Assembly: GCA_944393585.1 (NCBI GenBank)
Contig: CALYAR010000045.1
Location: forward strand, 1-45,442
Direction of reading: 5' to 3'
Length of the DNA: 45,442 nt
Source of the DNA: an uncultured Clostridia bacterium
GTDB taxonomy: Bacteria > Bacillota > Clostridia > CALYAR01
This document shows positions 2,671 through 37,546 of this stretch, one piece after another (positions within the stretch are counted from its first letter, which is position 1; every line of letters begins with the position of its first letter). A program made the position numbers and the translations under genes. The notes beneath the pieces were generated by a model. That model saw only the letters and a program-made list of their open reading frames with translations, ran no database searches and was not told where the DNA came from.

Positions 2671-3084
2671 CTACTGGTCACAGCCGCAGCCGCAATTATT
2701 GTCCCTGGAGCGGGCCGGCGGGAAGAACTGGTTCATGGGGAACTGAATCTTCGAGAACAGGTCGCAGGGGTTTTCTTCGGTTGCCGCGATACATTCTTTA
2801 TCCGGGATTAAGAAGTCGTAGGTCGGGATCAAAAGCTGAACCTTGCGTTCCAGCTTTACAATCGAGAATACGCCGAGCGATACATATACTTTTTTCTGTT
2901 CGCCGCGGATGACGAAGTTGTCGCCGAAAATCTGGCAGATAGTTTCCGGAATCGGCGTGTTTTCGATGGTTTCGTTTTCGCAGCCGCAGCTGCAGCATTC
3001 ATCTACTTCGACCAGTCGGCAGGAGAGTGCGATCGGGTCTACTACCTCCACAGCTGCCCCCAAAGAGGAAGATGAGACGGTCAT
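2671..3084 (-). CDS. 3' half of an interrupted gene: C-terminal part of a Cys-rich protein of unknown function
   Basis: Open frame of 137 codons, but only the last 124 (2671-3045) appear native. The first 13 residues (to AAVE) are encoded by element DNA and the adjoining recombinase end: the ATG at 3084 overlaps the recombinase stop as ATGA, and no good ribosome binding site precedes it. The native part begins VVDPIALS, has a CCSCGC cluster near the start, a VSLGVFSIVKL strand and a CGCGC tail. Joined in frame after Glu171 of the 5' half at 10752-11303, it gives a 295-residue product. From memory such full-length proteins occur in Ruminococcaceae-type clostridia as uncharacterised proteins. 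A coat-like role is inference from the Cys clusters and the skin-like arrangement. Confidence 0.75.
   Translation of the reverse strand: MTVSSSSLGAAVEVVDPIALSCRLVEVDECCSCGCENETIENTPIPETICQIFGDNFVIRGEQKKVYVSLGVFSIVKLERKVQLLIPTYDFLIPDKECIAATEENPCDLFSKIQFPMNQFFPPARSRDNNCGCGCDQ
3046..3065 (-). other. Left attachment site: core CTC plus attP arm
   Basis: Plus-strand CTC at 3046-3048 is the shared core; the element-side arm GCCCCCAAAG at 3056-3065 is the near-exact inverted partner of CTTTGCGGGC at 10775-10784. When the ends are joined as in an excised circle, the arms (9 of 10 bases paired) flank a 16-bp spacer with the TC dinucleotide exactly at the centre of the dyad. That is the geometry of a serine-integrase attP. 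Confidence 0.7.
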
Positions 3085-4568
3085 TTGGTATGAGAGGATG
3101 GATTTGCGGACTGAAATTGAATTTCGGTTTTTCCGTCGGGCGACACGCGGATCTCACAAAGAAGCTGTTTCATTTGCCGGTGGCTCCAATTTTCCAGACC
3201 GAGCCCGCGTTCCGGCGAAAACCGGGGATCGGGCAAAGGCGGGGCGGCTTTTTTCTGCTCCATGGCCTGGCTAAGCCGGGCTTCGCGCCTGCGGCATTCG
3301 GAAACGTTTTGCTTGCATTCTTCGATCGAGATGACGTCGTTTTGATATAAGGTAAGCCATTTGCCGATTTCACGCTGAATTTTAGCCAGTGAGTTTTGAT
3401 ATTGTTCCTGCTGTGCCAACCATTGGGCGGAAGGAGCCGTGCGTTTTTGGCGGATTCGTTCTAACAGTCGAGCAGGTTCTGGCAGTTTGGATAGCAAATA
3501 GGCTTCCAGCCATCCATACAAGTCCGCTTCCGGAAGGGAGACGGCATTGGAACAAAAGGAACTTCCATAGTGGTCATGGCCGGAACAGCGCCAGCGGGGG
3601 GCAGAGTCTCTGGTCTGTTTTCGAATGAACGAGCGGCCGCATTCCGTGCAGCGGATCAGGGTGCTGAGCGGATATGTACTGCTGGGCCGGGTTGCACCGG
3701 AGGTTTGTTTTCCGCGCTCCGAAAGGAGTTTTTGGGCCTTTTCAAATACCTCGTCGGATACGATGCGGTATTCCGGCCGCTCGAGAACAAAGCGTTCTTC
3801 CGGGCCGGTTGTCCGCTGGGCGCCGCTCAGGAAATCCGTGGTTTCGTATTTGTTGGTAATCAATGTCCCTTTGTAGATGGGATTTTGCAGAATGCGCCGG
3901 ACGGTTTTGGGATCCCAGTTACCGCAGCCTTTTTTGGTTGGAACCTGCATGCCGCTAAGCTGTGCGGCAATGCTGCGCGTCCCGGCACCCGCTTCGGTAT
4001 AGAGCGTAAAAATTATCCGAACGACATTTGCTTCGAAGGGGTTTGGCTGGAGCTTAAAAGTGTCTACTTTATCATAGCCAAAGATAAGGTTTGGAACACG
4101 GCCCTTTTTGGCATTAACCTTCTTGCCGAATTTGACCCGCTTGGAAAGGCTTGCGCTTTCTTCCTGTGCTAAGGCGCTGAAAATGGTAAGGACAAATTCC
4201 GAATTTCCCAAAACAGTTTGGTTGTTGGTCAGAAACAGCACTTCAATGCCGCGGCTTTTTAACAGCCGCACGGCATTTAAAAAATCTACCGTATTTCGGG
4301 CAAAGCGGGAGATGTCTTTGACCACTACAAGATCAAAAGAATGCTCTCTGGAATCTTCCAGCAGCTGTAAAAATTCCGGCCGGTTTTTCATTTGTTTTCC
4401 CGAGATCCCTTCATCTGCGTAAATTCGGATCAGTTCATAATGGCTTTTTTGGGCAAATTCTTCAAAAAAGGCCTTCTGATTGGCCAGCGATTCCAGCTGT
4501 TCTTCTTTTTCCGTGCTAACGCGGCAGTAAGCCGCCATCCGTTCCAATTCCCGCCTCACTCCTTCCAT
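3081..4568 (-). CDS. Large serine recombinase (site-specific excisionase/integrase)
   Basis: A 495-residue, apparently intact large serine recombinase. The resolvase-type catalytic domain runs from about 10 to 150 with nucleophile Ser18 in YCRVST and the SRFARN segment at 87-92; a Recombinase DNA-binding domain follows at about 155-270 (GYDKV to KAQKLL). A zinc ribbon has Cys307, Cys310, Cys328 and Cys339, and a coiled-coil-like region lies at about 385-440. Such enzymes cut at a 2-bp core between attP and attB. The gene ends 33 bp from the left core and its stop overlaps the ATG of the 3' gene half. ATG 4568 has little spacing for a ribosome binding site; the in-frame TTG at 4547 or ATG at 4538 (MAAYCRVS) may be the true start, using AAGGAG at 4560-4565. 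A sigma-E-like promoter lies upstream at 4741-4768. Confidence 0.93.
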   Translation of the reverse strand: MEGVRRELERMAAYCRVSTEKEEQLESLANQKAFFEEFAQKSHYELIRIYADEGISGKQMKNRPEFLQLLEDSREHSFDLVVVKDISRFARNTVDFLNAVRLLKSRGIEVLFLTNNQTVLGNSEFVLTIFSALAQEESASLSKRVKFGKKVNAKKGRVPNLIFGYDKVDTFKLQPNPFEANVVRIIFTLYTEAGAGTRSIAAQLSGMQVPTKKGCGNWDPKTVRRILQNPIYKGTLITNKYETTDFLSGAQRTTGPEERFVLERPEYRIVSDEVFEKAQKLLSERGKQTSGATRPSSTYPLSTLIRCTECGRSFIRKQTRDSAPRWRCSGHDHYGSSFCSNAVSLPEADLYGWLEAYLLSKLPEPARLLERIRQKRTAPSAQWLAQQEQYQNSLAKIQREIGKWLTLYQNDVISIEECKQNVSECRRREARLSQAMEQKKAAPPLPDPRFSPERGLGLENWSHRQMKQLLCEIRVSPDGKTEIQFQSANPSSHTK

Positions 4569-4842: not shown

Positions 4843-4871
4843 ACCAGTAGATTCCAAATGGAGGGGTGAAC

Positions 4872-5225
4872 ATGCCGAGACCGCAGAAGTGCCGAAAAAT
4901 TTGTGCATTGCCGAAAGTTGTGAACTTTGGGCCGCTGGAGTATGTACCGGAAGAGGAAGAAGCGGTTCAGATGGGGGTCGATGAATTTGAAGTGATCCGG
5001 CTGATTGATTTGCTGGGAATGACCCAGCAGCAGTGTGCAAAACGGATGGGCATTGCCCGCACAACCGTAACGAGGATCTATGAATCTGCCCGCAGAAAGA
5101 CGGCGGACGCGCTGGCCAATGGAAAAAAACTGACCATTGGCGGCGGGGAATTTACTGTCTGCGATGGTCTGCGTCCGGAATGTGCAGACAATGAAAATTG
5201 CTGCTGGCGCAGCAGAAACGGATGA
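4872..5225 (+). CDS. DUF134 (UPF0251) family DNA-binding protein
   Basis: A 117-residue putative regulator starting MPRPQKCRKIC, the hallmark opening of the DUF134 family, followed by FGP and a sigma-70-region-4-like helix-turn-helix at about 45-80 (EVIRLIDL, MTQQQCAKRMGIARTTVTRIYESAR). The C-terminal tail carries four Cys residues (VCDGLRPEC, ENCCW), possibly metal- or redox-sensing together with the N-terminal Cys pair. The ATG at 4872 is chosen because GGAGGGG (4860-4866) is correctly spaced from it, whereas the upstream in-frame GTG at 4866 lies inside that site. It is first in the cargo operon, 60 bases before the sulfur enzyme, so control of that operon is a reasonable inference. Confidence 0.85.
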   Translation: MPRPQKCRKICALPKVVNFGPLEYVPEEEEAVQMGVDEFEVIRLIDLLGMTQQQCAKRMGIARTTVTRIYESARRKTADALANGKKLTIGGGEFTVCDGLRPECADNENCCWRSRNG

Positions 5226-5285: not shown

Positions 5286-7868
5286 ATGAAGGTATTAGTC
5301 ATTGGCGGCGTTGCTGCCGGAACCAAAGCCGCAGCAAAGCTGAAACGGGTGGACCGCAGTGCAGAAGTACTGATTATCACGAAAGACCCGGACATTTCCT
5401 ATGCCGGCTGCGGGCTTCCCTATTATGTGGGCGGTGCGATTGCAGACCGGTCTGAATTGATCGTGAACACGCCGGAGAGCTATTGCGCCTTAACCGGCGT
5501 AGAAGTGCGGACGGGACGGGAGGCCGTATCGCTCGACAGTGCGAAAAAATGTGTTACGGCAAAAAATATGGTTACGGGAGAGACGGAGGTCTATTCTTAC
5601 GATTCGTGCATTCTGGCAACCGGCGCTTCGCCGGTCGTCCCCGACATGCCAGGGATCACGATGCCGGGCATATTTAAAATGCGTACGCCGGAAGATGCTG
5701 TCACTATGCGCGATTATATGGGAAGCCATGGCGTAAAAAAGGCGGTCGTCGTAGGCGGCGGGTTCATTGGGCTTGAAATTGCGGAAAATTTGAAACAGCA
5801 GGGCTTAAATGTAACCGTCATCGATCTGGCTCCCCAAATTATGCCCAATGTATTCGACCCGGAAATGGCGGACTTTGCCGCAAAGCATTTGCGGAAGAAC
5901 GGAATCCGCGTCATGACCGGTACCGGCCTCAAAGCGGTGCTGGGAGAAGAGTGCGTGACAGGCGTTCAGACTGAGGCGGGAGTCATTCCCTGTGATCTGG
6001 TGGCCTTGTCCATCGGCATTCGGCCCAACACGGCATTTTTAGAAGGCAGCGGCATTGCAATGCAGAAGGGAACTATCCTGACCGATTCCAGGCTTCGGAC
6101 CAATCTGCCGGACGTATACGCCGCGGGGGACTGCGCGATGGTAGAAAACCGGCTCACCGGAGCGCCGCAGTGGTCTGCCATGGGGTCTTCTGCCAACTAT
6201 GAAGGACGTACGCTTGGACAGATTTTAGGCGGAGCGGACAAGCAGTACCCGGGCGTTTTGGGAACCGGCGTAGTAAAAATGGCAGGGCTTAACGGCGGCC
6301 GGACGGGGCTGACAGAGGCGCAGGCAAAAGCGGCCGGATTTGATGTCATCACGGCATTGGCGGTGACGGATGATAAAGCGCATTATTACCCTGGGGCTTC
6401 CTACTTTGTGACAAAGCTCATTGCCGACCGGAATACTCATCGGCTTTTGGGCATGCAGGTGTTCGGGCCGGGCGCGGTGGATAAAATGGTCGATACGGCA
6501 GTCGTCGGTATTTCCATGGGAGCGAAGCTGGAAGACTATGAAAACATGGATCTGGCCTATGCGCCGCCGTTTTCCACTGCCATTCACCCGTTTGTCCAGG
6601 CGGTCTACATTCTGCTCAACAAGCTGGAAGGACAGCTGGTCAGCATGACGCCGGCGGAATATGCGGCCGGAGCTGCGAAAGGATATCGAGTGATAGACGT
6701 CGGCAAGCTGCCCTCCATCCCCGGCGCGACGTTTGTAAATCTGGGAGCAGTGCGCGGAGAAGTGGACGGCTTGGGAAAGGACGAAAAACTGCTTTTGGTC
6801 TGCAACCGCGGAAAACGCGCGTATTTTCTCCAAAACCGGCTCCGTCATTACGGCTATACCAATACGGTTGTCTTAGAGGGCGCTACATTCTTCAATGACG
6901 TCCGTGTCGAGGGAGTGAAATACACCGTCACGCCGGAGGACATAACCCGGGTCAAGGCGCTGGGCTTTTTGCAGGATAAACGCACGCCGGACTGCTTTAA
7001 CGGGCGAGTCATCACGCGCAACGGAAAAATTACAGCGGAAGAGAGCCGGTTCATTGCGGAGGCGGCGGAGAAATTCGGCAGCGGGGAAATTACTATGACC
7101 TCCCGCTTGACGCTGGAGATCCAGGGGGTTCCCTATGCCAACATTGAACCGCTGCGCGAATATTTGATGCAGGCGGGTCTGGAGACAGGCGGAACGGGTT
7201 CCAAGGTACGGCCGGTCGTCTCCTGCAAGGGTACGACGTGCCAATATGGCCTGATTGACACTTTTGCCCTGTCGGAGGAAATTCACGAACGCTTCTACCA
7301 TGGATATCACGATGTAAAGCTCCCGCATAAATTTAAAATTGCAGTGGGCGGATGTCCCAATAACTGTGTCAAACCGGATCTGAACGATCTTGGGATTATC
7401 GGCCAGCGCGTTCCGCTCATTCGAACGGACAAATGCCGCGGCTGTAAGGTATGCCAGGTGGAGAAGGCATGTCCAATCAAAGCGGCCAGCCTGGCGGAAG
7501 GAAAAATCGTCATCGATCCGCAGCAGTGCAACCACTGCGGCCGTTGCATCAGCAAATGCCCCTTCGGCGCATTGGAGACGGAGGTTAGCGGATATAAAGT
7601 ATATATCGGCGGCCGCTGGGGCAAGAAGGTGGCGCAGGGAAGGGCGCTTGACCGGATTTTCACCAGCCGGAAGGAAGTTTTGGACGTGGTCGAAAAGGCC
7701 ATTCTGCTGTTCCGGGAACAGGGCAATACCGGCGAACGCTTTGCCGATACCATTGCCAGAATCGGGTTTGAGGAGGTTCAGGCCCAGCTTCTGGATGATG
7801 CGCTTCTGGAGCGGAAAGAGGAAAATCTCGCTGCGCAGAAACATGTAAAAGGCGGGGCAACCTGCTAA
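5286..7868 (+). CDS. Four-domain sulfur oxidoreductase: CoA-disulfide/persulfide reductase - rhodanese - sulfite reductase - 2x[4Fe-4S] ferredoxin
   Basis: An 860-residue cytoplasmic fusion. Residues 1-450 form a FAD/NAD(P) disulfide oxidoreductase of the CoA-disulfide reductase group: FAD loop GGVAAG (7-12), single active Cys42 in SYAGCGLPYY, NAD loop GGGFIG (157-162), and YAAGDCA near 278-284. Residues about 455-545 are a rhodanese domain with active Cys506 (VCNRGKR). Residues about 570-705 match the siroheme/[4Fe-4S] half of sulfite/nitrite reductases, with Cys647, Cys652, Cys690 and Cys694 in a C-x5-C...C-x3-C pattern. A ferredoxin domain with two clusters follows (Cys717/720/723/729 and 748/751/754/758). 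Likely NAD(P)H- or ferredoxin-driven reduction of persulfide, polysulfide or sulfite; the exact substrate is inferred. It lies between DUF134 and an ABC importer and carries no frameshift. Confidence 0.85.
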   Translation: MKVLVIGGVAAGTKAAAKLKRVDRSAEVLIITKDPDISYAGCGLPYYVGGAIADRSELIVNTPESYCALTGVEVRTGREAVSLDSAKKCVTAKNMVTGETEVYSYDSCILATGASPVVPDMPGITMPGIFKMRTPEDAVTMRDYMGSHGVKKAVVVGGGFIGLEIAENLKQQGLNVTVIDLAPQIMPNVFDPEMADFAAKHLRKNGIRVMTGTGLKAVLGEECVTGVQTEAGVIPCDLVALSIGIRPNTAFLEGSGIAMQKGTILTDSRLRTNLPDVYAAGDCAMVENRLTGAPQWSAMGSSANYEGRTLGQILGGADKQYPGVLGTGVVKMAGLNGGRTGLTEAQAKAAGFDVITALAVTDDKAHYYPGASYFVTKLIADRNTHRLLGMQVFGPGAVDKMVDTAVVGISMGAKLEDYENMDLAYAPPFSTAIHPFVQAVYILLNKLEGQLVSMTPAEYAAGAAKGYRVIDVGKLPSIPGATFVNLGAVRGEVDGLGKDEKLLLVCNRGKRAYFLQNRLRHYGYTNTVVLEGATFFNDVRVEGVKYTVTPEDITRVKALGFLQDKRTPDCFNGRVITRNGKITAEESRFIAEAAEKFGSGEITMTSRLTLEIQGVPYANIEPLREYLMQAGLETGGTGSKVRPVVSCKGTTCQYGLIDTFALSEEIHERFYHGYHDVKLPHKFKIAVGGCPNNCVKPDLNDLGIIGQRVPLIRTDKCRGCKVCQVEKACPIKAASLAEGKIVIDPQQCNHCGRCISKCPFGALETEVSGYKVYIGGRWGKKVAQGRALDRIFTSRKEVLDVVEKAILLFREQGNTGERFADTIARIGFEEVQAQLLDDALLERKEENLAAQKHVKGGATC

Positions 7869-7893: not shown

Positions 7894-8877
7894 TTGAATC
7901 ATAAGAAAAAACTTGTATATCCCCTCATCGTTTTCTGTCTGTTTCTGTTTGCCGCCTGTGCACCGGGCGGCACAGAGCAGCCGCCTTCCGCTTCCCAGCA
8001 GGCGCAGGCGTTTTATACCTTTACCGACGATGCCGGCACGCAGATCACATTGCAGGAAAAACCGGAAAAAGTGGCGGTGCTCTTTTCCTCTTTTGCCGAT
8101 ATCTGGCGCACGGCAGGCGGAGACGTCAGCATTACGGTCGGCGAAAGCGTAGAACGCGGCTTTGCGGAAGAAGGGGTTCTGCTGGTCGACGATGGGGCCG
8201 GAAAAACCATCAATCAGGAACTGCTTGTATCGTATGAGCCGGACCTGGTCATCTGCTCCGCCGATATTCAGGCGCAGGCCGAGACGGCAAAGCTTTTAAA
8301 CGATGCCGGCATTCCGGCGGCTCAATTCCGTGTGGAGTCCTTTGAAGATTATCTTCATATGCTGAAGATTTGTACGGACATTACGGAAAATGCGCAGGCC
8401 TATCAAACCTATGGACTGGATGTGGAGGAAGACATTGAAACCCTGCTCTCCGGTCTGGAACAAAAAACAGCGGCGGCAGAGCAGAAGCAAATCCTTTTTG
8501 TCCGCGCCGGTTCTCAGTTTAGTTCCACGAAGGCAAAGACGGCGGAAGATAATTTTGTCTGCGTGATGTTAAAGGAGCTTGGAACCTACAACATTGCCGA
8601 AAACGCGCCGGTGCTCCTCGACGGGCTCAGCTTTGAAGAGGTTTTAATTTCCGATCCCGACTACATCTTTATTACCACAATGGGGAAGGAAGACGCGGCG
8701 AAAGCGTACATGGAAGATCTGTTTCAGGAAGACGGATGGAAAGACCTTACCGCAGTAAAAGAGAAAAACTATTGTTATTTGCCGAAGGATTTGTTTCATT
8801 TTAAACCCAATGCACGCTGGGGAGAGGCCTATCAGTATTTAGCCGATTTACTTTATCCGGAAAAGGCAGGGGAGTAA
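7894..8877 (+). CDS. ABC transporter substrate-binding lipoprotein, FecB/BtuF type
   Basis: A 327-residue extracellular binding protein. Residues 1-21 are a lipoprotein signal peptide (KKK, hydrophobic stretch, FAAC lipobox), so Cys22 should be lipidated and anchored outside the membrane. The mature part begins with a Ser/Gln-rich linker, then the class III binding-protein fold: FTDDAGTQITLQEKPEKVAVL opening strand and VSYEPDLVICSADIQAQ, typical for iron-siderophore, heme and cobalamin binders. Start is TTG 7894, with AAGGA eight bases before it. It sits 25 bases after the sulfur enzyme and two bases before the permease. The ligand is not readable; iron complex, heme/siroheme or cobalamin are all possible. 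Confidence 0.85.
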   Translation: MNHKKKLVYPLIVFCLFLFAACAPGGTEQPPSASQQAQAFYTFTDDAGTQITLQEKPEKVAVLFSSFADIWRTAGGDVSITVGESVERGFAEEGVLLVDDGAGKTINQELLVSYEPDLVICSADIQAQAETAKLLNDAGIPAAQFRVESFEDYLHMLKICTDITENAQAYQTYGLDVEEDIETLLSGLEQKTAAAEQKQILFVRAGSQFSSTKAKTAEDNFVCVMLKELGTYNIAENAPVLLDGLSFEEVLISDPDYIFITTMGKEDAAKAYMEDLFQEDGWKDLTAVKEKNYCYLPKDLFHFKPNARWGEAYQYLADLLYPEKAGE

Positions 8878-8878
8878 T

Positions 8879-9898
8879 ATGTCGAAATGGCAGCCATCTG
8901 ATTCCAGTCCCTATCGTTTCCGCAGGGGAGCGCTGCTGGTTTTGCTGGCGCTTCTGCTTGCGGGGGTAGTAATTGCCGGGTTAAGCCTGGGCAGCGCCCC
9001 GCTGAATCTGCCGCAAATCTGGGGAGGGCTCTGGGGAAAAGAGGGCTTTGAGACGGAAGGGATCATCCTGCGGACTGTCCGCCTGCCCCGCGTAGTGGGA
9101 GGCGTCTTTTGCGGGATCGGCCTGTCCGTGTCAGGCGTTTTGCTCCAGGCCGTGACCAATAATTCTCTGACAAGCCCGAATATCATTGGGATCAATGCCG
9201 GAGCAGGGTTTTTGGTCATTTTGCTGTCCTGCTTTTTTCCCGCCGCTTACTCGGCTCTGCCCTTTGCCGCCTTTGCCGGTGCATTTTTGACGGCTCTTTT
9301 CATCATTACGGTCTCCCACCGTATCAGTTCGTCCAAAATAACGGTTATTTTGGCGGGCATGGCGTGCAACGCCGTCTTAAATGCCGGAATTTCCTTTTTG
9401 TCTCTGCTGTTTCCGGACGTGTTTACCTCCTACCGCTATTTTTCGGTGGGCGGCCTGTCCGGCGTCAGTTTGGACCGGATCTGGCTGCCTGCGGTCATTA
9501 TTCTGCTTTGCCTGGGTGCGGCGCAGGCGCTTTCCGGAAAGATTAATCTGCTGTGCGTAGGCGACAGCATGGCATCTTCGCTGGGAGTACGCGTCAAGCG
9601 CCTGCGCATGGCATGCCTGATTCTGGCCAGCGCATCCGCGGCGGGGGTTGTATCGTTTGCGGGCCTTTTGGGATTTGTGGGCCTGATTGTGCCCCATATT
9701 GCCCGCCGGATTGTAGGCGGGAACGTGCGCTGGCTGATCCCTGTTTCCGCACTGGGCGGAGCAGTGCTTGTGGTGCTGTCTGATCTTTTGGGGAGGGTGC
9801 TGTTTGCACCTACGGAGCTTCCGGTGGGGATTATTCTGTCGCTCATCGGCGCACCGTTTTTCTTTGTGCTTTTGCTGAAAAGGAGGACGGAATTATGA
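8879..9898 (+). CDS. ABC transporter permease, FecCD/BtuC type
   Basis: A 339-residue polytopic membrane protein with about ten hydrophobic segments. Family marks include LRLPR-like TVRLPRVVGGVFCGIGLSVSG near 60-85, NSLTSPNIIGINAGAGF at about 96-112, and the conserved cytoplasmic GLIGFVGLIVPHIAR-like stretch (GLLGFVGLIVPHIARRIVG) that contacts the ATPase, at about 262-280. It would form the homodimeric channel of a type II importer for iron-siderophore, heme or cobalamin. The ATG follows the binding-protein stop by one base with a GGGGAG ribosome binding site inside that gene's end, and its own stop overlaps the ATPase start, so translation is likely coupled. Confidence 0.92.
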   Translation: MSKWQPSDSSPYRFRRGALLVLLALLLAGVVIAGLSLGSAPLNLPQIWGGLWGKEGFETEGIILRTVRLPRVVGGVFCGIGLSVSGVLLQAVTNNSLTSPNIIGINAGAGFLVILLSCFFPAAYSALPFAAFAGAFLTALFIITVSHRISSSKITVILAGMACNAVLNAGISFLSLLFPDVFTSYRYFSVGGLSGVSLDRIWLPAVIILLCLGAAQALSGKINLLCVGDSMASSLGVRVKRLRMACLILASASAAGVVSFAGLLGFVGLIVPHIARRIVGGNVRWLIPVSALGGAVLVVLSDLLGRVLFAPTELPVGIILSLIGAPFFFVLLLKRRTEL

Positions 9899-10662
9899 TG
9901 CTGGAGGTAAACAGAGTTTCGGCGGGCTATCATGGAAAAAAGGTATTAAAGGACATATCCTTTTCCGTTTCACCGCATAAAATGACCGCAGTACTGGGCA
10001 AAAACGGCTGCGGAAAGTCAACTTTGGTTTCGTGTATCAATCAGCAGATTGCGGACTATACCGGGCAGATCCGGTTGCAGGACCGCGATCTCAAGGAGAT
10101 GACGCCGGTAGAACGCGCACGGGCGGTTTCCATATTGCCGCAGCTGCTCCCTGCGCCTTCGGTAACGGTGGGCGAGCTGGTGCGCTTCGGCCGCAGTCCC
10201 TATCTCGGCTGGGGAAAGAGGATGTCTGAGCTGGATGAAGAATTGGTTGCGCAGGCCATGGAATTGACGGAAATCACCAGCATGGAACAGAACCTGGTAT
10301 GCAATCTGTCGGGAGGGGAGCGGCAGAAGGCGTACCTGGCCATGATATTGGCTCAAAACACCCGCCTGATCGTATTGGATGAGCCGACGACGTATATGGA
10401 TATTGAATACCAGGGAAAGCTGATGAAGCTTTTGACGTATCTCAAAAAGGAAAAGAAAAAAACGCTGTTGGTCGTCATGCACGATTTGTCCCTTGCGCTT
10501 CGCTATGCGGATAATATCGTTCTATTGGAGGACGGCTGCGTACGCTTTCAGGGGACGGCGGAGGAGTGCCTTTCTGCGGATGCGCTGGAGCAGGTTTTTC
10601 GTGTGCGAAAGCATATGATAGAAGAAAACGGAAAACGGTATGTTGTATTTGATTCGGAGTAG
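9895..10662 (+). CDS. ABC transporter ATPase, FecE/BtuD type
   Basis: A 255-residue cytoplasmic ATPase that powers the importer encoded just before it. Motifs in order: Walker A GKNGCGKST at about 36-44, Q-loop around ILPQLL, signature LSGGERQ at about 141-147, Walker B LIVLDEPTTYMD at about 158-169 and a switch histidine in VVMHD. This order and the YMD after the Walker B are typical of iron-chelate/cobalamin importers. ATG 9895 overlaps the permease stop; the next codon is also ATG, so 9898 is an alternative start. Last gene of the cargo operon, followed directly by a terminator and then by the right attachment site. Confidence 0.93.
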   Translation: MMLEVNRVSAGYHGKKVLKDISFSVSPHKMTAVLGKNGCGKSTLVSCINQQIADYTGQIRLQDRDLKEMTPVERARAVSILPQLLPAPSVTVGELVRFGRSPYLGWGKRMSELDEELVAQAMELTEITSMEQNLVCNLSGGERQKAYLAMILAQNTRLIVLDEPTTYMDIEYQGKLMKLLTYLKKEKKKTLLVVMHDLSLALRYADNIVLLEDGCVRFQGTAEECLSADALEQVFRVRKHMIEENGKRYVVFDSE

Positions 10663-12448: not shown

Positions 12449-12471
12449 AACAAGCCACGGCATTGTATAAT
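12443..12471 (+). promoter_or_regulatory. Consensus sigma-A promoter of nrdD
   Basis: TTGACA (12443-12448), 17 bases, TATAAT (12466-12471): a perfect vegetative promoter, with its -35 inside NrdR box 2. It shows that nrdD can be transcribed independently of nrdG. Confidence 0.9.
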
Positions 12472-12552
12472 AGGTTCACAGCAAAGCAAGTGGCATCTTG
12501 GATAACAATTTTTTATTACAATATAAAAATACATAGAAATGAGGGGTTTGGC

Positions 12553-14931
12553 ATGTATGAGGTAGTAAAGCGGGACGGAGCCCGTGCAGAATTCAACATC
12601 GCAAAAATCAGCGCCGCGATTACAAAGGCATTTGAAGCACAGGAAAAGCAGTATCATCCCAGCATTATCGATTTGCTGGCATTGAAAGTAACGTCTGATT
12701 TTGAACCAAAGATCAAAGATGGCGTGATCGCAGTAGAGGATATCCAGGACAGCGTGGAATCGGTCTTAATTCAGGCAGGCTATGCAGACGTTGCAAAAGC
12801 ATATATTTTGTACCGCCGGCAGCGGGAAAAAATCCGCAATATGAAGGCCACAATTTTGGACTATAAGGAATTGGTGGACAGCTATGTGAAAGTAACGGAC
12901 TGGCGCGTCAAGGAAAACTCCACCGTGACTTATTCCGTCGGCGGCCTGATTTTAAGCAACAGCGGCGCAATCACGGCAAACTACTGGCTGTCCGAGGTTT
13001 ATGACGACGAAATTGCAAATGCACATCGGAATGCGGACATCCATCTTCACGACCTGTCCATGCTGACCGGCTACTGTGCGGGATGGTCGCTCAAGCAGCT
13101 TATTCAGGAAGGACTCGGCGGCGTTCCCGGAAAAATCACCTCAAAACCCGCCAGCCATTTGGCAACGCTGTGCAACCAGATGGTAAACTTTTTGGGAATC
13201 ATGCAGAACGAATGGGCAGGAGCGCAGGCCTTCTCTTCCTTTGATACATACTTAGCTCCCTTTGTAAAGGTGGATAATCTTTCTTACTATGAAGTGAAAA
13301 AGTGTATTGAATCCTTTATTTTCGGCGTCAATACGCCAAGCCGCTGGGGAACGCAGGCTCCGTTTTCCAACATTACTCTGGACTGGACTGTTCCGAACGA
13401 TCTGGCAGAGTTAAACGCCATTGTCGGCGGCAAGGAAATGGACTTTAAGTATAAAGACTGCAAAAAAGAAATGGATATGGTCAACAAAGCCTTCATTGAA
13501 ATTATGATCGAGGGCGATGCGAACGGGCGCGGTTTCCAATACCCCATCCCGACCTATTCCATTACCAAAGATTTTGACTGGTCGGAAACAGAAAACAACA
13601 AACTCCTGTTTGAGATGACGAGCAAATACGGCACCCCCTATTTCTCGAACTATATCAACAGTGATATGGAACCGAGCGATATCCGGAGCATGTGCTGCCG
13701 TCTGCGGCTGGATCTGCGGGAACTGCGCAAAAAGTCCGGCGGCTTCTTTGGAAGCGGGGAAAGTACGGGATCGGTCGGCGTTGTCACGATCAATCTCCCG
13801 CGGATTGCCTACCTGGCGGAGGATGAAGCAGATTTTTACCGCCGTCTTGACCGGATGATGGACATTTCGGCGCGGTCGCTGAAAATCAAGCGCACGGTTA
13901 TAACAAAGCTTCTCAATGAAGGGTTGTATCCATACACGAAGCGTTATCTGGGGACGTTTGATAATCACTTTTCGACCATTGGATTGGTTGGAATGAATGA
14001 GGCCGGACTCAATGCGAAATGGCTCCGTGCAGATTTAACGCACGAAAAAACGCAGAAGTTTGCCAAGGACGTTTTAAACCATATGCGGGAGCGGCTGTCG
14101 GATTATCAGGAGGAATATGGGGATCTCTACAATCTGGAAGCGACCCCGGCGGAATCCACCTCATACCGGCTGGCAAAGCATGATGTAGCGCGGTACCCGG
14201 ATATTATTACAGCCTCGGAAGAGGGGGGAACACCCTACTATACCAACAGCTCTCACCTGCCGGTTGGTTATACGGAAGATATTTTTGACGCGCTGGACGT
14301 TCAGGATGAATTGCAGACGCTTTATACTTCCGGAACAGTGTTCCACGCATTTTTGGGAGAAAAGCTTCCGGATTGGAAAGCGGCGGCCAACCTGGTTCGA
14401 AAGATCGCGGAGAATTATACGCTTCCTTACTACACGCTTTCGCCGACGTATTCCATCTGTAAACACCATGGCTATTTGGCAGGCGAACAATATGTCTGCC
14501 CCGAATGCGGTGAAAAGACGGAGGTTTACAGCCGGATTACCGGATATTACCGTCCGGTTCAGAACTGGAACGATGGAAAACTGCAGGAATTTAAAGAGCG
14601 GAAAGTGTATAACATTGGAACTTCCAAATTGAAAAAAGAGCGGAAAGAGAGCTGCGCCTGCAGCGGAAGGGAAAATCCTGTTGCTGAAGGGGAAAAGCTG
14701 TTGTTGTTTACCACCAAAACCTGTCCGAACTGCAAACTGGCTTACGAACTGTTAAACAATGCGCACGTTTCCTATGAAGTGATTGATGCGGAGGAAAACG
14801 CCGATCTGGTCAGCGCATACGGCATCCGGCAGGCGCCGACTTTGGTCGTGGTACACGGCGATCAGTTTGAAGCTTATGGAAACCTGTCGAATATCAAAGG
14901 ATATTTGGAAAAGCTTCGGCTTCTGGCATAA
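12553..14931 (+). CDS. nrdD: Class III anaerobic ribonucleoside-triphosphate reductase with C-terminal glutaredoxin-like domain
   Basis: A 792-residue glycyl-radical enzyme making deoxyribonucleotides for DNA synthesis without oxygen. Residues 1-95 form an ATP-cone for allosteric control (VVKRDGARAEF). The catalytic barrel follows, then a zinc-binding region with Cys636, Cys649 and Cys652, and the radical site Gly664 in RITGYY. After a Cys-containing linker (CACSG, about 701-705), residues 714-792 form a glutaredoxin/thioredoxin-like domain with a CPNC redox pair (724-727), probably recycling active-site thiols. ATG 12553 with GAGGGG before it is the true start; the frame is open further upstream but that runs through the promoter. 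Controlled by NrdR boxes at 12402-12448. Confidence 0.96.
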   Translation: MYEVVKRDGARAEFNIAKISAAITKAFEAQEKQYHPSIIDLLALKVTSDFEPKIKDGVIAVEDIQDSVESVLIQAGYADVAKAYILYRRQREKIRNMKATILDYKELVDSYVKVTDWRVKENSTVTYSVGGLILSNSGAITANYWLSEVYDDEIANAHRNADIHLHDLSMLTGYCAGWSLKQLIQEGLGGVPGKITSKPASHLATLCNQMVNFLGIMQNEWAGAQAFSSFDTYLAPFVKVDNLSYYEVKKCIESFIFGVNTPSRWGTQAPFSNITLDWTVPNDLAELNAIVGGKEMDFKYKDCKKEMDMVNKAFIEIMIEGDANGRGFQYPIPTYSITKDFDWSETENNKLLFEMTSKYGTPYFSNYINSDMEPSDIRSMCCRLRLDLRELRKKSGGFFGSGESTGSVGVVTINLPRIAYLAEDEADFYRRLDRMMDISARSLKIKRTVITKLLNEGLYPYTKRYLGTFDNHFSTIGLVGMNEAGLNAKWLRADLTHEKTQKFAKDVLNHMRERLSDYQEEYGDLYNLEATPAESTSYRLAKHDVARYPDIITASEEGGTPYYTNSSHLPVGYTEDIFDALDVQDELQTLYTSGTVFHAFLGEKLPDWKAAANLVRKIAENYTLPYYTLSPTYSICKHHGYLAGEQYVCPECGEKTEVYSRITGYYRPVQNWNDGKLQEFKERKVYNIGTSKLKKERKESCACSGRENPVAEGEKLLLFTTKTCPNCKLAYELLNNAHVSYEVIDAEENADLVSAYGIRQAPTLVVVHGDQFEAYGNLSNIKGYLEKLRLLA

Positions 14932-32618: not shown

Positions 32619-32656
32619 AACCCGCTGGAATCAACGTTCCGGCGGGTTCCGTTTTT
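32619..32656. terminator. Bidirectional terminator between the sigma factor and restriction genes
   Basis: AACCCGC (32619-32625) pairs with GCGGGTT (32642-32648), extended by GGAA/TTCC; TTTTT follows on the plus strand and TTTTC on the minus strand. It overlaps the last codons of the restriction gene, so both convergent genes end here. Confidence 0.85.
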
Positions 32657-35621
32657 GCTCTAAGACTTCCTGGATGATTTGCTTTATTTGTTTATTGTTG
32701 ATCTGCTCCTCAAAAGAAATGGTATAACCATCCTGCGCAAGGGTTTCAAAAAAGAGGCGGGCGCATTCTATTTTAGCAGCTTCCGTGCCTTGAAGCTCTC
32801 CCTTGTTTTCGACGTCTTTCGTCTCGACGACAAGGTTCACTACCATTTCGCTGGAGGCTTTTTTGACAACGTACATAAAATCGGGGCTGTACATTTCCCC
32901 GGTAGTTGTGGGGATTGCAATGCTGCCCCGCGGGATCTTTCCATATACGACGACCTCTTTAATATCTGCGGTGAGATTGTTCTGCTCCAGCGGAGAGTCA
33001 TAGGTATAGGAATCGTATAGGTACTTTTCGCTCGGCGTGCCGGGCATTAATTTTGTTCCAATCCGCCCCTGTGAAATTTCGGGACGAGGCGTACCGTCCG
33101 AATAGGTAAGCGCGGTAGCTTTGGTAATTGCGCTGCTTTTTACATAGCGAATGCGGGATAGCAGCGCACGGGTTTTCCAGGCCTGAAACGCTGCACAGAA
33201 AGCGCTGACAGAGTTTTCGTTGAAATACCGCGCATCCACATTACCGTGTTTTTTCGCATATGCACACAGGGCCTGATGCAATATTGTAATCGGCAGATTG
33301 GTAATACGCATAATCCGCTTGAGAAATACATTGTACGCAATCGGCCTCATGATTGTGTACTGCACACCGGTTCCACGGGTGACTGCCATTTGATCTCCGT
33401 CATTTGTCACAATGTCCCGCGTACTGCTCATTACGACATCGGTAAAGATTTTAGAGTTCTCAAACAGCGATAATACAACCGACTCTAATTCTTCATTTAT
33501 GTCTGTGGCATAATACAGCAGATAACGCTGATTTAGACTCTCCCAAAGAGGACGGATTTCTTCGTACACTCCTTTGCGGATTCGAATCGGCTTTGGCTTG
33601 TTCCGGTTGCGGTCACGCACCTTGCCGGCAGAAATTCCTGCAGCAAATCCTGGATATTCTGCAAAAAATAAATCCCGGCTTTCCGGCTTAATGTTCATAT
33701 GCCGGTCAATATAGTGCTTATCATACAGAAGATCAAATAATTCGTCCGAAGTCAAACCCATTTGAGCTGCAACCTGGATCAGGCGTTCTTCGCTGATTGC
33801 AGAAGCCAGCGGGACCTCTCCGTTGATTTGTTCGACCAGGCGTTTGGCAAAATCAGCTTCAGTAAAGTCGACAATGTAATTAAGCTGAAATTCCTCATTG
33901 GAAACGCGGTTTCCGTTTTCATCCACGGGCAAACGCAGGCCGCGTCCAACTTCCTGCAGTTTGCTGTTTTCGCTTCCGCTGGATCGGAGTTTTGCAATGG
34001 TAAAGACGTTTGGATTGTCCCATCCTTCTTTCAGCGTCCACTTGGAAAACAGAAAGCGAAGCGTATAATAGCTCCCATCCTCGTTGCGAAATGAGAGCAG
34101 TTTCTTTTTGCCGTGCAGAATAATGTCGACTTCTTTGGCAATATTTTCATCGGAATCGCTGTTATCCTGAGAAAAATATCCGGCATGGCAGGCCGAAAGA
34201 TCAGCCAGGCTCGCTTCCAGATAAGCGCGGTATTCCACCTCATGTTCATTGAGCGAAGCCAAAACCAATTCAATTCGTTCTTTGAGCAGCTGTTCAAATT
34301 TCATGCGCAGGTATGGCAGCTTCCCATTTTCATCAGCACGGTAAGAGGTAATATCTTCAATAAAAAACAGTGCCAGCGTCTTTATTTTAAACATCCGATT
34401 GCAGAAATTTTCCCGCTCTGTCTCAAAATGACGATCCAACGCAAGACGCAGCATTTGCTCCTGATAGGACGTCATATAGATGTCAACATCCAGTTCCTCT
34501 CCTGTGGTTTTGACTACGCCGTTGGAAAATTCCACAGTAGAGGAAGCAATGGCATAAACAGAAATTCCTTCCAAGGCCTTGCTGATCATCGATAAGGAAT
34601 CCCCTGTTTTCAGTTTGTATAATTTTGTTGCTTCATCGCGTTTTTTATACTGCAGGGTAACGGAGTCTTTGCTGGCGATGGACATGATTTTGATCTTTTC
34701 CTCACGCTTTGAGACCGGCTCAAAATGCTCTTTTGCCACTCCCTTAATCAAGCCCTGGTTAAAGGATTCACAGGCGTTGAGGTCGTAGAGTAAATTCTGA
34801 TAATCTTTTACTGTTACTTTGTTTTTCCCCCGGCCATTGGTTATCTCGGGAAAAGTAGCGCCGAAGCGGATCAGGCACTGCGGACGGATTTCTTCCATAA
34901 TTGCCTTGAATGCCTTTTGCTCGCGGGAGAAGCGATGAGGCTCGTCGATGATGACGATGGGATAAGTAGCTCTGAGTGCGTCTAAAGGGCGGTAAAACCC
35001 TTCGATCCCATACCCGTAGTCATCCCGGGTAAGTAGTTTTGCACTGGTCAAAAGCTGCATATTAAACAGCAGGACATGGATTTTTCTGGTGTTTTGACAG
35101 GAGCCCTTTACAAAGTTGCTTACGGCGCCTGGAAAATATGCCCGTCCCTTTTTCTTGTTTTTCGGCGGTTCCAGGACATTGACTTCCAGCTCCGTTCCAT
35201 AGCCGCAGCCATCTGAAAAATGCCGGCGGACGTATTCATCTTGAAGAAACTGCGCCGTTCCCGCTTTAATGGCAAGAGAAGGGGTGACAATGATAAATTT
35301 GTTCATTCCAAAGCGCCGGTTCAGTTCAAAAATAGTTTTGGTATATACGTAGGTTTTTCCAGTGCCGGTTTCCATTTTAATATCCAGATTCAGACAATTT
35401 CCAATGGGAGCATTGCTCTGATAGGACAAAGGAAGGGGAGCCTGAATCCGGTGAATGTTAACGGGTAGCCTTGGATCGGTCAAAGATATTCTGGGGTTTT
35501 CAAAATATAGTTTTGGCGCAGAAATCTGAACGCCTTCCAAGGCCGCACAAATTGCGTCTACGGCCTTTTGCTGATGAGGGAGGTTTTGCTGCAAGAGTAT
35601 TTCCATGGTCATCTTCTCCAT
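32631..35621 (-). CDS. Type III restriction enzyme, Res subunit (helicase-nuclease)
   Basis: A 996-residue subunit that, with Mod, translocates along and cuts unmodified DNA. The superfamily 2 helicase has Walker A METGTGKT (83-90), Walker B IIDEPHRF at about 224-231 and motif VI VGRGLRLP near 590. The C-terminal nuclease is visible as SPDFMYVV followed by LVVETKD (about 924-947), the PD-(E/x)K catalytic pattern. Length is typical. Its start overlaps the mod stop (TAATG), the ATG at codon 6 being better spaced from GGAGA. It therefore depends on mod translation. No frameshift is seen, so the system appears functional. Confidence 0.93.
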   Translation of the reverse strand: MEKMTMEILLQQNLPHQQKAVDAICAALEGVQISAPKLYFENPRISLTDPRLPVNIHRIQAPLPLSYQSNAPIGNCLNLDIKMETGTGKTYVYTKTIFELNRRFGMNKFIIVTPSLAIKAGTAQFLQDEYVRRHFSDGCGYGTELEVNVLEPPKNKKKGRAYFPGAVSNFVKGSCQNTRKIHVLLFNMQLLTSAKLLTRDDYGYGIEGFYRPLDALRATYPIVIIDEPHRFSREQKAFKAIMEEIRPQCLIRFGATFPEITNGRGKNKVTVKDYQNLLYDLNACESFNQGLIKGVAKEHFEPVSKREEKIKIMSIASKDSVTLQYKKRDEATKLYKLKTGDSLSMISKALEGISVYAIASSTVEFSNGVVKTTGEELDVDIYMTSYQEQMLRLALDRHFETERENFCNRMFKIKTLALFFIEDITSYRADENGKLPYLRMKFEQLLKERIELVLASLNEHEVEYRAYLEASLADLSACHAGYFSQDNSDSDENIAKEVDIILHGKKKLLSFRNEDGSYYTLRFLFSKWTLKEGWDNPNVFTIAKLRSSGSENSKLQEVGRGLRLPVDENGNRVSNEEFQLNYIVDFTEADFAKRLVEQINGEVPLASAISEERLIQVAAQMGLTSDELFDLLYDKHYIDRHMNIKPESRDLFFAEYPGFAAGISAGKVRDRNRNKPKPIRIRKGVYEEIRPLWESLNQRYLLYYATDINEELESVVLSLFENSKIFTDVVMSSTRDIVTNDGDQMAVTRGTGVQYTIMRPIAYNVFLKRIMRITNLPITILHQALCAYAKKHGNVDARYFNENSVSAFCAAFQAWKTRALLSRIRYVKSSAITKATALTYSDGTPRPEISQGRIGTKLMPGTPSEKYLYDSYTYDSPLEQNNLTADIKEVVVYGKIPRGSIAIPTTTGEMYSPDFMYVVKKASSEMVVNLVVETKDVENKGELQGTEAAKIECARLFFETLAQDGYTISFEEQINNKQIKQIIQEVLEQKRNPPER

Positions 35622-37546
35622 TAATATCGAATATCAAAGTTAATGCGCAGATTTTTCTCTGTATCTTTTAGCCGCTTCAAATTGATTTGCAAAGCTTCCA
35701 GCTGTGTCCAGGTAAAACTGTAGCCAAACAGCACAACATTTTCCGGATTGAAGCATGCGTCCGTTTCATATCTTGTTATGATCGCTTCGATCGCCTTGTC
35801 GGATAGTTCCGGATCAGTCAAATACAAATGTTTTTTCATCCAATAGGCCCGATATCCGGCAAAATTCATTTCCTCAGCCGAAGCAGTAAACCCATATCCG
35901 TCCCGAACCAGCCATGTCGTTAAAACGGCTGATGTTCCGAATTCCTCTAAGACAGAGCTGTTACCGGATATGGCGCTGTCCTCTATGGAAAAACTCTCCA
36001 GCCTGTCCAGCGTACCGCTTGACGGCTCCGACAAGATATAGTGGCGGAATCCCAAATCGGCACCGGTTTGCGGATTCTCTTCCCGGATTTTTTGTGAAGC
36101 GCGGATGATCCGCTCCATTCCGATTTGATCCAAGGTATGAGGCCTGTTGTGTTTATCTAACAGCTCAACAATGGGAAGCCACTTTTCTTTCTCGCTTTTG
36201 GAAGCCGATTCGATCAAGGCGTCGATATCCTCCGGCAGCTGAACCAGAATGAAATGGCAGCTGCAATCGAGACCATAGCGAAGTGTAGATTCGGCAGTTG
36301 TTGCAGAACCGGCAAAAAAGTCGAGCACGATATCATCGTTCTTGACGTTTGCCAGTCCAATAATTGCGTCAATTAATTTTGTAGGCTTTGGATTGCTGAA
36401 AGCGTTTTTAAATCCAAACAGCTCCGACAGCTCGGCGCTGGCCAACTGATTGTTCCCAAATATCTCGCTGGGCCACCAATTGCAGGCGCATTGTCCCTCT
36501 TGCTCCCGCTCAAACTGAAAATATTTTTTTCGCGGCATTCCATCGCCGCCGCGGGGGAATACAATTCGATTGTCCGATAAGAGTTTTCGATAGGTATGTT
36601 CGTCTCCCATCCATTCTTCGTCTAACATTACACCGGTGGGAGTGGTAATGGTATACCGGGTTCCCGACTGATCAGAGCCTGATTTCCACGGTTTAGAGGC
36701 CCAGGGACCGCGGGGATCATTGTCTGGATTGGAAAATTCTCCTGTCAGCGCCAATTTTCCAACCCCTTTTTCTTTTAAAAACTGGCTGTCTTTGGAGTAT
36801 ACCAGAATGTGTTCAGCCACCAGACCGATTAATTTGGTTCTGTCGTTTGGCTGATTGCTCCGCCGTCTCCAGTGGATATGGCCCTCAAAATTTTCTTCTC
36901 CGAATATATCATCGCACAGGAGCTTTAAATTTGCCTGCTCGTTGTCGTCAATCGAGATAAAGATCACACCGTCTTTTTTCAGCAAGTCTTTAGCGAGCAG
37001 CAAACGCGGATATAGAAACATCAGCCAGGCAGAATGAGAGGCAGAATCCCGTTTGGTGAAATCCAGGATCCGTTTTGCCTCTGCTTCGCTGACGCTTAAT
37101 TTTTCCGAGAGTTCCTCTATGGTAAAATGAAAGTGATCGTGATATACAAAGCTATCCGATCCGGTATTATAGGGCGGATCAATATAGATGCACTTGACCT
37201 CACCGGTATAGGATTTCAGAAGGTGTTTGAGTGCATCCAAGTTATCCCCGCTGATGTAGATGTTTTCGCTTTTTTTGTTTTCCGGTTTTGCATTATGATC
37301 TTCATCCGGTATGATTACAGTGGTAGTATCCAGAGAGGCAAGCAGACGGGCATAATTCTTGCCTAAAAATTTCAACTCGTATCCTTCATTTGTGACGGTT
37401 ATATTTTTACTCAAACATTCCCGAAACCGCTCTAAATCAAAACTGCCGTCTTTTCGAAAACAGGAAGGGAAATTTTCCCGTAAAACAGCCATTTCCCGGC
37501 TGTTGGGTGCTGTCTTTTCATTGGCGGCGATGATATCTTTTATCAT
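35621..37546 (-). CDS. Type III DNA-adenine methyltransferase, Mod subunit
   Basis: A 641-residue methyltransferase and recognition subunit of the type III system. The catalytic motif DPPYNTG (123-129) precedes the S-adenosylmethionine-binding motif DFFAGSATT (about 409-417), the beta-class order for N6-adenine enzymes. Between them lies the variable region that reads the target site, which cannot be predicted here. The N-terminal 60 residues and C-terminal helical tail match Mod proteins. No homopolymer tract or long simple repeat that would cause phase variation was noticed. The ribosome binding site is a modest GGGAG before ATG 37546. Together with Res it forms a two-gene operon. Confidence 0.93.
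   Translation of the reverse strand: MIKDIIAANEKTAPNSREMAVLRENFPSCFRKDGSFDLERFRECLSKNITVTNEGYELKFLGKNYARLLASLDTTTVIIPDEDHNAKPENKKSENIYISGDNLDALKHLLKSYTGEVKCIYIDPPYNTGSDSFVYHDHFHFTIEELSEKLSVSEAEAKRILDFTKRDSASHSAWLMFLYPRLLLAKDLLKKDGVIFISIDDNEQANLKLLCDDIFGEENFEGHIHWRRRSNQPNDRTKLIGLVAEHILVYSKDSQFLKEKGVGKLALTGEFSNPDNDPRGPWASKPWKSGSDQSGTRYTITTPTGVMLDEEWMGDEHTYRKLLSDNRIVFPRGGDGMPRKKYFQFEREQEGQCACNWWPSEIFGNNQLASAELSELFGFKNAFSNPKPTKLIDAIIGLANVKNDDIVLDFFAGSATTAESTLRYGLDCSCHFILVQLPEDIDALIESASKSEKEKWLPIVELLDKHNRPHTLDQIGMERIIRASQKIREENPQTGADLGFRHYILSEPSSGTLDRLESFSIEDSAISGNSSVLEEFGTSAVLTTWLVRDGYGFTASAEEMNFAGYRAYWMKKHLYLTDPELSDKAIEAIITRYETDACFNPENVVLFGYSFTWTQLEALQINLKRLKDTEKNLRINFDIRY

Follow-up and report, generated by a model that had tools for sequence, protein, structure and literature searches.

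The closest described relatives of the gene treated here are, for its N-terminal part, the coenzyme A (CoA)-persulfide reductases (CoADR-RHD; E. faecalis 8a56, B. anthracis 3icr and the NADH-dependent persulfide reductases) and, for its C-terminal part, the F420-dependent sulfite reductase Fsr (7np8, 7npa). In this paper we looked at a 45,442-nucleotide stretch of an uncultured Clostridia bacterium (contig CALYAR010000045.1; hereafter the window), in which one forward-strand gene joins these two kinds of enzyme in an 860 amino acid chain and is directly followed by the genes of a transporter. The fusion shares with CoA-persulfide reductases the fold, Cys42 and the rhodanese cysteine, and differs from them by an added C-terminal sulfite reductase and tail; it scores below the CoA-disulfide reductase equivalog cut-offs (TIGR03385, 382 bits against 578.8; PRK09564, 378 against 458). 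With Fsr it has in common a C-terminal siroheme domain with an inserted 2[4Fe-4S] ferredoxin, in one chain with a flavin donor, but that donor is an NAD(P)H-dependent CoA-reductase/rhodanese where Fsr has an F420 domain, and the first siroheme/cluster cysteine pair has an unusual C-X4-C spacing instead of C-X5-C. A further relative is the NADH-linked AsrABC. Its AsrC (group III Dsr-LP) is, according to PMC3448663, the same type of siroheme subunit with extra clusters, whereas in the fusion the CoA-reductase takes the place of AsrA/AsrB and TIGR02912 reaches only 107.3 bits of the required 324.1. NirB nitrite reductase, which uses NADH, likewise carries FAD/NAD and siroheme domains in one chain, yet the fusion has in addition a rhodanese and the inserted ferredoxin, and its NirB match (TIGR02374) amounts to 231.5 bits, in two stretches, against a cut-off of 578.35. 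The DsrA and DsrB models (TIGR02064, 92.6 bits; TIGR02066, 99 bits) are under their cut-offs as well, and the N-terminus is a CoA-reductase where the F420H2-oxidase domain of an Fsr would be expected.

Based on these comparisons and on the distribution data below, we suggest, with a probability of roughly 0.58, that the product is a single-chain NAD(P)H-linked reductase which reduces sulfite, and probably thiosulfate too, to sulfide, using siroheme imported by the adjoining transporter. The parts of the fusion are:

5286..7868, forward strand: CoA-reductase/rhodanese/sulfite reductase (ferredoxin) fusion, 860 amino acids (open reading frame, Pfam, NCBIfam, alignment, structure model)
5286..6590, forward strand: FAD/NAD(P)H CoA-persulfide/disulfide reductase domain, residues 1-435, with Cys42 (PRK09564, TIGR03385; alignments to 8a56, 3icr and 6pfz)
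6648..6908, forward strand: rhodanese domain, approximately residues 455-541, catalytic Cys506 (Pfam, 8a56 alignment, conservation)
6981..7169, forward strand: ferredoxin-like half domain of sulfite reductase, residues 566-628, invariant R574 (NIR_SIR_ferr, E 7e-14)
7197..7790, forward strand: siroheme/[4Fe-4S] sulfite reductase domain, residues 638-835, with C647, C652, C690 and C694 (NIR_SIR, E 3.6e-32; Fsr alignment)
7419..7577, forward strand: 2[4Fe-4S] ferredoxin inside the siroheme domain, residues 712-764, eight cysteines (Fer4 models, Fsr alignment, conservation)
7851..7865, forward strand: C-terminal GGATC tail, residues 856-860, Cys860 being the last residue (conservation in 50 fusions, linkage to the module, low model confidence)

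The reading frame starts with ATG and has no internal stop. A sequence-only reading of the window had described a single polypeptide of reductase, rhodanese, sulfite reductase and ferredoxin, and the intact frame, the Pfam matches and the structure alignment bear this out. All four parts are present, although the order it gave needs correction: the ferredoxin is not appended to the siroheme domain but sits inside it, as in Fsr. Pfam places Pyr_redox_2 at residues 1-287 and Pyr_redox_dim at 336-433. The Pfam Rhodanese match (residues 477-532, E 5e-4) is slightly below the gathering score; the call is nevertheless firm because the alignment to 8a56 runs through its rhodanese domain, with Cys506 falling on the catalytic loop, and Foldseek gives a TM-score of 0.92 to 8a56 across the first two domains (the first 541 residues), which rules out a spurious domain. 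With an FAD/NAD domain, the redox Cys42 and a fused rhodanese cysteine, this part belongs to the known pairing of CoA-persulfide/disulfide reductase and rhodanese, as had been recognized from the sequence. The closest solved structures are 8a56 for residues 2-533 and 7npa for residues 580-828, and the AlphaFold2 model has a mean predicted local distance difference test (pLDDT) score of 86.6 and a predicted template modelling score of 0.75.

The C-terminal half shows the characters of a group III Dsr-LP/Fsr-type siroheme domain: the siroheme-[4Fe-4S] motif, two extra [4Fe-4S] sites and the sulfite-binding Arg/Lys residues. R642, K682 and K684 correspond in the alignment to R423, K460 and K462 of Fsr, which PMC10229431 names as sulfite-binding, and R574, which lies outside the stretch aligned with Fsr, would be the fourth such residue. 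Among 50 aligned fusions, on which conservation was judged, C42, C506, G509 of the rhodanese loop, C647, C652, C690, C694 and the eight ferredoxin cysteines (C717, C720, C723, C729, C748, C751, C754 and C758) are invariant, so every key residue listed by the sequence-only reading exists and is conserved. The ratio of nonsynonymous to synonymous substitution rates (dN/dS) is 0.01-0.15 for every domain in related fusions, where computable, which indicates purifying selection, and the sulfite reductase half has the lowest value of the three parts in each pair computable for all. The intact frame, the invariant residues and the purifying selection together rule out a chance assembly, a frameshift or a pseudogene.

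One alternative is that the protein is a NirB-like sulfite reductase in which the CoA-reductase domain is just the entry point for NAD(P)H/FAD electrons, sulfite is the only substrate, and the rhodanese and the tail are minor or regulatory. NirB and Fsr do follow this logic of joining an FAD domain with a siroheme domain, and the NirB model does match in its two stretches. Against it stand the invariance of Cys42, Cys506 and G509 in 50 fusions and the constraint under which the rhodanese evolves; the NirB cut-off is missed and no Fer2_BFD domain appears among the Pfam/NCBIfam matches. We regard this alternative as unlikely, if still the most serious of those considered here.

How widespread the fusion is was asked first among 41 related genomes, where a full-length fusion is found in the window's genome, G034 and G008, and separate adjoining genes in G011, G020 and G006. 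Among the 80 best-scoring loci of a public-genome scan (the named loci; Mediterraneibacter, Gemmiger, Fournierella, Blautia and Eisenbergiella are examples of the gut Clostridia from which most of them come), 75 are fused, one is split with adjacent genes and four lack the CoA-reductase/rhodanese module. The rarity implied by the sequence-only reading is ruled out by these 75 loci. The fused form is over-represented in this set, and an evenly drawn set of 391 Clostridia genomes (the class sample) gives a fairer count: searched with the sulfite reductase half (E up to 1e-70), it has 61 positive genomes with 63 places, five of them fused (including the window), 17 adjacent and 41 without the module. 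In the large quick tree (see below) a single supported clade contains the fused forms and also module-less ones, the latter read here as later losses. A common and already characterised enzyme would have told against the sequence-only reading; the fusion is common, but searches of the open-licence PubMed Central (PMC) literature listed no paper on its architecture. The closest case there is halobacterial, 19 of 529 proteins joining a rhodanese to NirA (PMC11237513). The fusion is thus a common new combination of known parts and by itself moderately interesting; the conserved C-terminal tail and the transporter, neither of which the sequence-only reading mentioned, are the more novel parts.

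G856, G857, A858 and C860 of the tail are invariant, all 50 aligned fusions ending in G-G-A-x-C, and in the AlphaFold2 model the tail has pLDDT below 50. We compared tail and module over 142 loci (97 with the module fused or adjacent and 45 without), drawn from the named loci and the class sample, which may have species in common. The tail is found in 95 of the 97 and in two of the 45. Of the two tail-less module loci, L066 has a broken frame and L158 lies at a contig end; the two module-less tail carriers (L098 and L157) each have a different redox cysteine domain, PF09719, fused on. Loci ending in SGATC (L167) and TTATC (L174) were scored as tail-less. In the class sample alone the tail/module table reads 21, 1, 1 and 40 (Fisher p 2e-14, a value inflated by relatedness). 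In a small careful tree of 60 rows all four supported independent pairs agree and none opposes (p 0.125), with six of six agreeing over all branches. A large quick tree, which leaves out four of the 142 loci for want of a usable core (L066 with its broken frame, L142, L158 and L184), has three supported independent pairs, of which a mean of 2.8 agree and none opposes (p 0.25); by a less strict pair count 8-10 of 10-11 agree, again with none opposing. A close module partner elsewhere in the genome was found in none of the 33 genomes that have the sulfite reductase and no adjoining module: their best module match has 41% identity, against approximately 52-71% for true partners. Two other forms were seen. 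A second fusion (L098:6518-7936 and L157:3268-4614) consists of PF09719 (C_GCAxxG_C_C), the same sulfite reductase and a GGATC tail. A degenerate copy (L155:174-1205, reverse strand) starts with a rhodanese remnant and ends in GGAASL, without the cysteine.

The co-occurrence of tail and module suggests that the tail may serve as a built-in arm that carries sulfur between the halves. For CoA-persulfide reductase, PMC9405070 gives a distance of 26.6 Å from C42 to the rhodanese cysteine and supposes that CoA swings from one to the other; with such a gap already bridged by a carrier, an extra one for the sulfur of the sulfite reductase half would make sense. These data also bear on the option that two uncoupled enzymes have simply been joined, a CoA-persulfide reductase for persulfide detoxification and a sulfite reductase of the assimilatory kind that runs on an outside ferredoxin. 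That the halves occur as separate adjoining genes, and that sulfite reductases of the family occur alone, would fit this option, but a tail on the sulfite reductase half that comes and goes with the other half would not, and we find it rather doubtful.

Another question that is raised is where the siroheme comes from. In the window's genome (G000, 95.5% complete) no match to SUMT, CysG-N, HemB or CbiK was found while control genomes were positive, CbiX/SirB not being part of the search; as these are lacking, this genome should not be able to make siroheme. A match to 3'-phosphoadenosine-5'-phosphosulfate (PAPS) reductase is likewise absent, with positive controls. Among the 61 sulfite reductase genomes HemB is present in 25 and SUMT, above cut-off, in 26, both being present in 25. 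One explanation is that these hosts leave the siroheme domain empty or fill it with a different cofactor, as the missing pathway in G000 might lead one to expect. However, neither the siroheme/cluster ligands nor the sulfite-binding residues vary among the fusions, the sulfite reductase half is the part with the lowest dN/dS, and an importer family appears where the synthesis is missing, all of which makes this explanation very improbable. The genes of this candidate importer are located directly downstream of the fusion gene:

7894..8877, forward strand: solute-binding lipoprotein, candidate siroheme importer (Peripla_BP_2, E 1e-18)
8879..9898, forward strand: FecCD-type permease, candidate siroheme importer (FecCD, E 4e-83)
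9895..10662, forward strand: ATPase, candidate siroheme importer (ABC_tran, E 4e-27)

In class and parts the transporter resembles the FecCD-type importers of haem and cobalamin (BhuTUV, BtuCDF); unlike these, the candidate appears to go with siroheme enzymes in hosts that lack siroheme synthesis. In a neighbourhood comparison of 62 loci, from which the window locus (transporter present, no HemB) was excluded, 27 of 35 loci from HemB-lacking genomes have a FecCD-class transporter close to the sulfite reductase, against 0 of 27 from HemB-bearing ones (Fisher p 1.5e-10). We built a profile of the solute-binding protein (SBP) from 30 sequences, to which 22 of the 61 test genomes contributed. At a threshold of at least 200 bits genome-wide the family is present in 34 of the 36 HemB-lacking genomes (one, G107, counted from two fragments) and in none of the 25 HemB-bearing ones; outside the profile-building set the figures are 12 of 14 and 0 of 25. 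In six of the 34 carriers (G069, G252, G321, G085, G101 and G176) the assembly places transporter and sulfite reductase apart, so the association is not mere shared linkage. In the careful tree nine supported independent pairs differ in HemB; the transporter is opposite in eight, the same in one and contrary in none (p 0.008). The swap of HemB for transporter is seen even within one genus (G206/G333), and is not seen in another same-genus pair (G245/G297). In Eisenbergiella tayi (L092), SUMT, HemB and HemL lie downstream of the fusion and no such transporter was found in the locus. The family thus accompanies a siroheme enzyme where siroheme synthesis is absent, as would be expected of a siroheme importer.

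Could the transporter import something else, such as haem, a corrinoid or a ferric siderophore, its link to absent siroheme synthesis reflecting lifestyle? The FecCD class spans such substrates, Foldseek gives no discrimination, and weaker relatives are found in cobalamin clusters. Against this, the family at 360 bits or more, counted over the 391 genomes, is present in 30 of 36 with sulfite reductase and no HemB, in 0 of 25 with both, in three of 272 with neither and in one of 58 with HemB only. Moreover, of the four carriers without sulfite reductase (G136, G242, G058 and G337) three have siroheme- or sulfite-pathway genes adjoining the transporter: an operon of solute-binding protein, CysG-N (above cut-off), FecCD and ATPase in G136 (L226); NirJ2 (above cut-off; the family name is haem d1 synthesis protein) in G242 (L224); and, in G058 (L225), a CbiK-like chelatase, which passes the CbiK cut-off of Pfam and falls below that of NCBI, with the transporter divergent from AprA and CysDN. 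In G337 the transporter is at a contig end. Import of another substrate is therefore, in our opinion, rather unlikely. These neighbours and the cobalamin clusters indicate that the substrates of the family are probably tetrapyrroles and that those of the branch beside the fusion are most likely siroheme or sirohydrochlorin. R204 and K215 of the solute-binding protein are invariant and K304 is near-invariant in the 30-sequence alignment; they would suit a ligand with eight carboxylates. The weaker relatives (approximately 150-315 bits) often lie in apparent cobalamin synthesis clusters (L227, L228, L230, L231, L232, L233 and L237), part of whose gene names are presumed ones, and these relatives are possibly importers of corrinoid precursors.

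Taken in order, the FAD/Cys42 domain would be reduced by NAD(P)H, as in its family. Cys506 of the rhodanese would accept the sulfane sulfur of thiosulfate, or of CoA or other persulfides, with sulfite released in the case of thiosulfate. The Cys506 persulfide would then be reduced to HS- by the CoA-reductase domain via CoA and Cys42, in the manner of CoA-persulfide reductase. Since all ligands and sulfite-binding residues are present, sulfite would be reduced at the siroheme-[4Fe-4S] centre, with electrons passing through the inserted 2[4Fe-4S] ferredoxin from the FAD of the same chain or from an outside ferredoxin; electron flow from NAD(P)H to siroheme with the rhodanese handling persulfide, as proposed earlier for this gene, is plausible. 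The flexible GGAxC tail may shuttle sulfur between the sulfite reductase and persulfide halves. If so, it would work as DsrC does for DsrAB, with a C-terminal cysteine beside a siroheme enzyme; here, however, it is a short one-cysteine tail on the enzyme itself, while DsrC is a separate protein, and no homology is claimed. As the host appears unable to make siroheme, the lipoprotein, FecCD permease and ATPase would import siroheme or sirohydrochlorin, for which the genomic evidence is strong. With PAPS reductase absent, the sulfur substrate is presumably external and the sulfite would not come from PAPS-type assimilatory sulfate reduction. In Halanaerobium a rhodanese together with Asr was proposed for thiosulfate reduction (PMC5497025), a division of labour that is the same as here, with separate genes there and one chain here. 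The fusion has these activities and a persulfide reductase in addition, so it is likely to act on thiosulfate, sulfite and persulfides and to release sulfide.

Several observations weigh against this proposal. At 41 of the 63 class-sample places the sulfite reductase stands without the CoA-reductase/rhodanese module, so that another electron donor must serve there and the module is not always required. The tail link stands on few independent events (the four on supported branches). G245 (99% complete) and G048 (97%) have the sulfite reductase but neither HemB nor, as far as the profile search shows, the transporter; G242 has the transporter plus HemB, and G364 has SUMT without HemB. Finally, siderophore and haem binders alike resemble the solute-binding model in Foldseek.

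Two further genes precede the fusion in the window:

4866..5225, forward strand: DUF134 gene (helix-turn-helix like), putative regulator of the cassette (Pfam DUF134, E 2e-23)
3081-4568, reverse strand: serine recombinase (Resolvase, Recombinase and zinc ribbon; Pfam)

The DUF134 gene adjoins the fusion gene in 34 of the 80 named loci, a divergent LysR gene often being upstream elsewhere, and it probably regulates the cassette. The earlier placement of the fusion on a mobile element is not supported, despite the recombinase: the flanks are housekeeping genes (NrdG/NrdD, AlaRS), the other scanned genes of the window are chromosomal in kind, and the recombinase, a lone gene not carried along in relatives, has a match in only one of the 80 named loci (L043, 26% identity). 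Cargo of a mobile element was rejected on these grounds, attachment sites and element boundaries not having been searched for. The anaerobic ribonucleotide reductase NrdD (12463-14931, forward strand), which adjoins NrdG, has a C-terminal glutaredoxin-like domain (PF00462, residues 747-796), and a type III restriction-modification pair is located at 32631-37546 on the reverse strand.

A wider picture, which we put forward tentatively and consider possible rather than probable, is of a widespread gut-Clostridia cassette in which a siroheme auxotroph combines a dedicated siroheme/sirohydrochlorin ATP-binding cassette importer with a one-chain thiosulfate-to-sulfide reductase whose GGAxC arm is a built-in DsrC. 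Among the papers listed from the open-licence PMC literature no siroheme uptake system was found described, while one paper on a fungal siroheme auxotroph surfaced. Gut sulfide formation is usually counted via dsrAB and asrABC. The fusion lies under curated cut-offs of this type, and surveys relying on them could miss an enzyme whose sulfite reductase half occurs in 61 of the 391 genomes of the class sample. The tail offers a single residue as a handle on sulfur movement within the enzyme; it and, above all, the importer prediction raise the interest of the locus, both being sharp and testable. If the importer reading is true, this would be the first siroheme uptake system, 36 of the 61 hosts would depend on others for siroheme or a late precursor, and gut microbes would be linked by cross-feeding of this cofactor.

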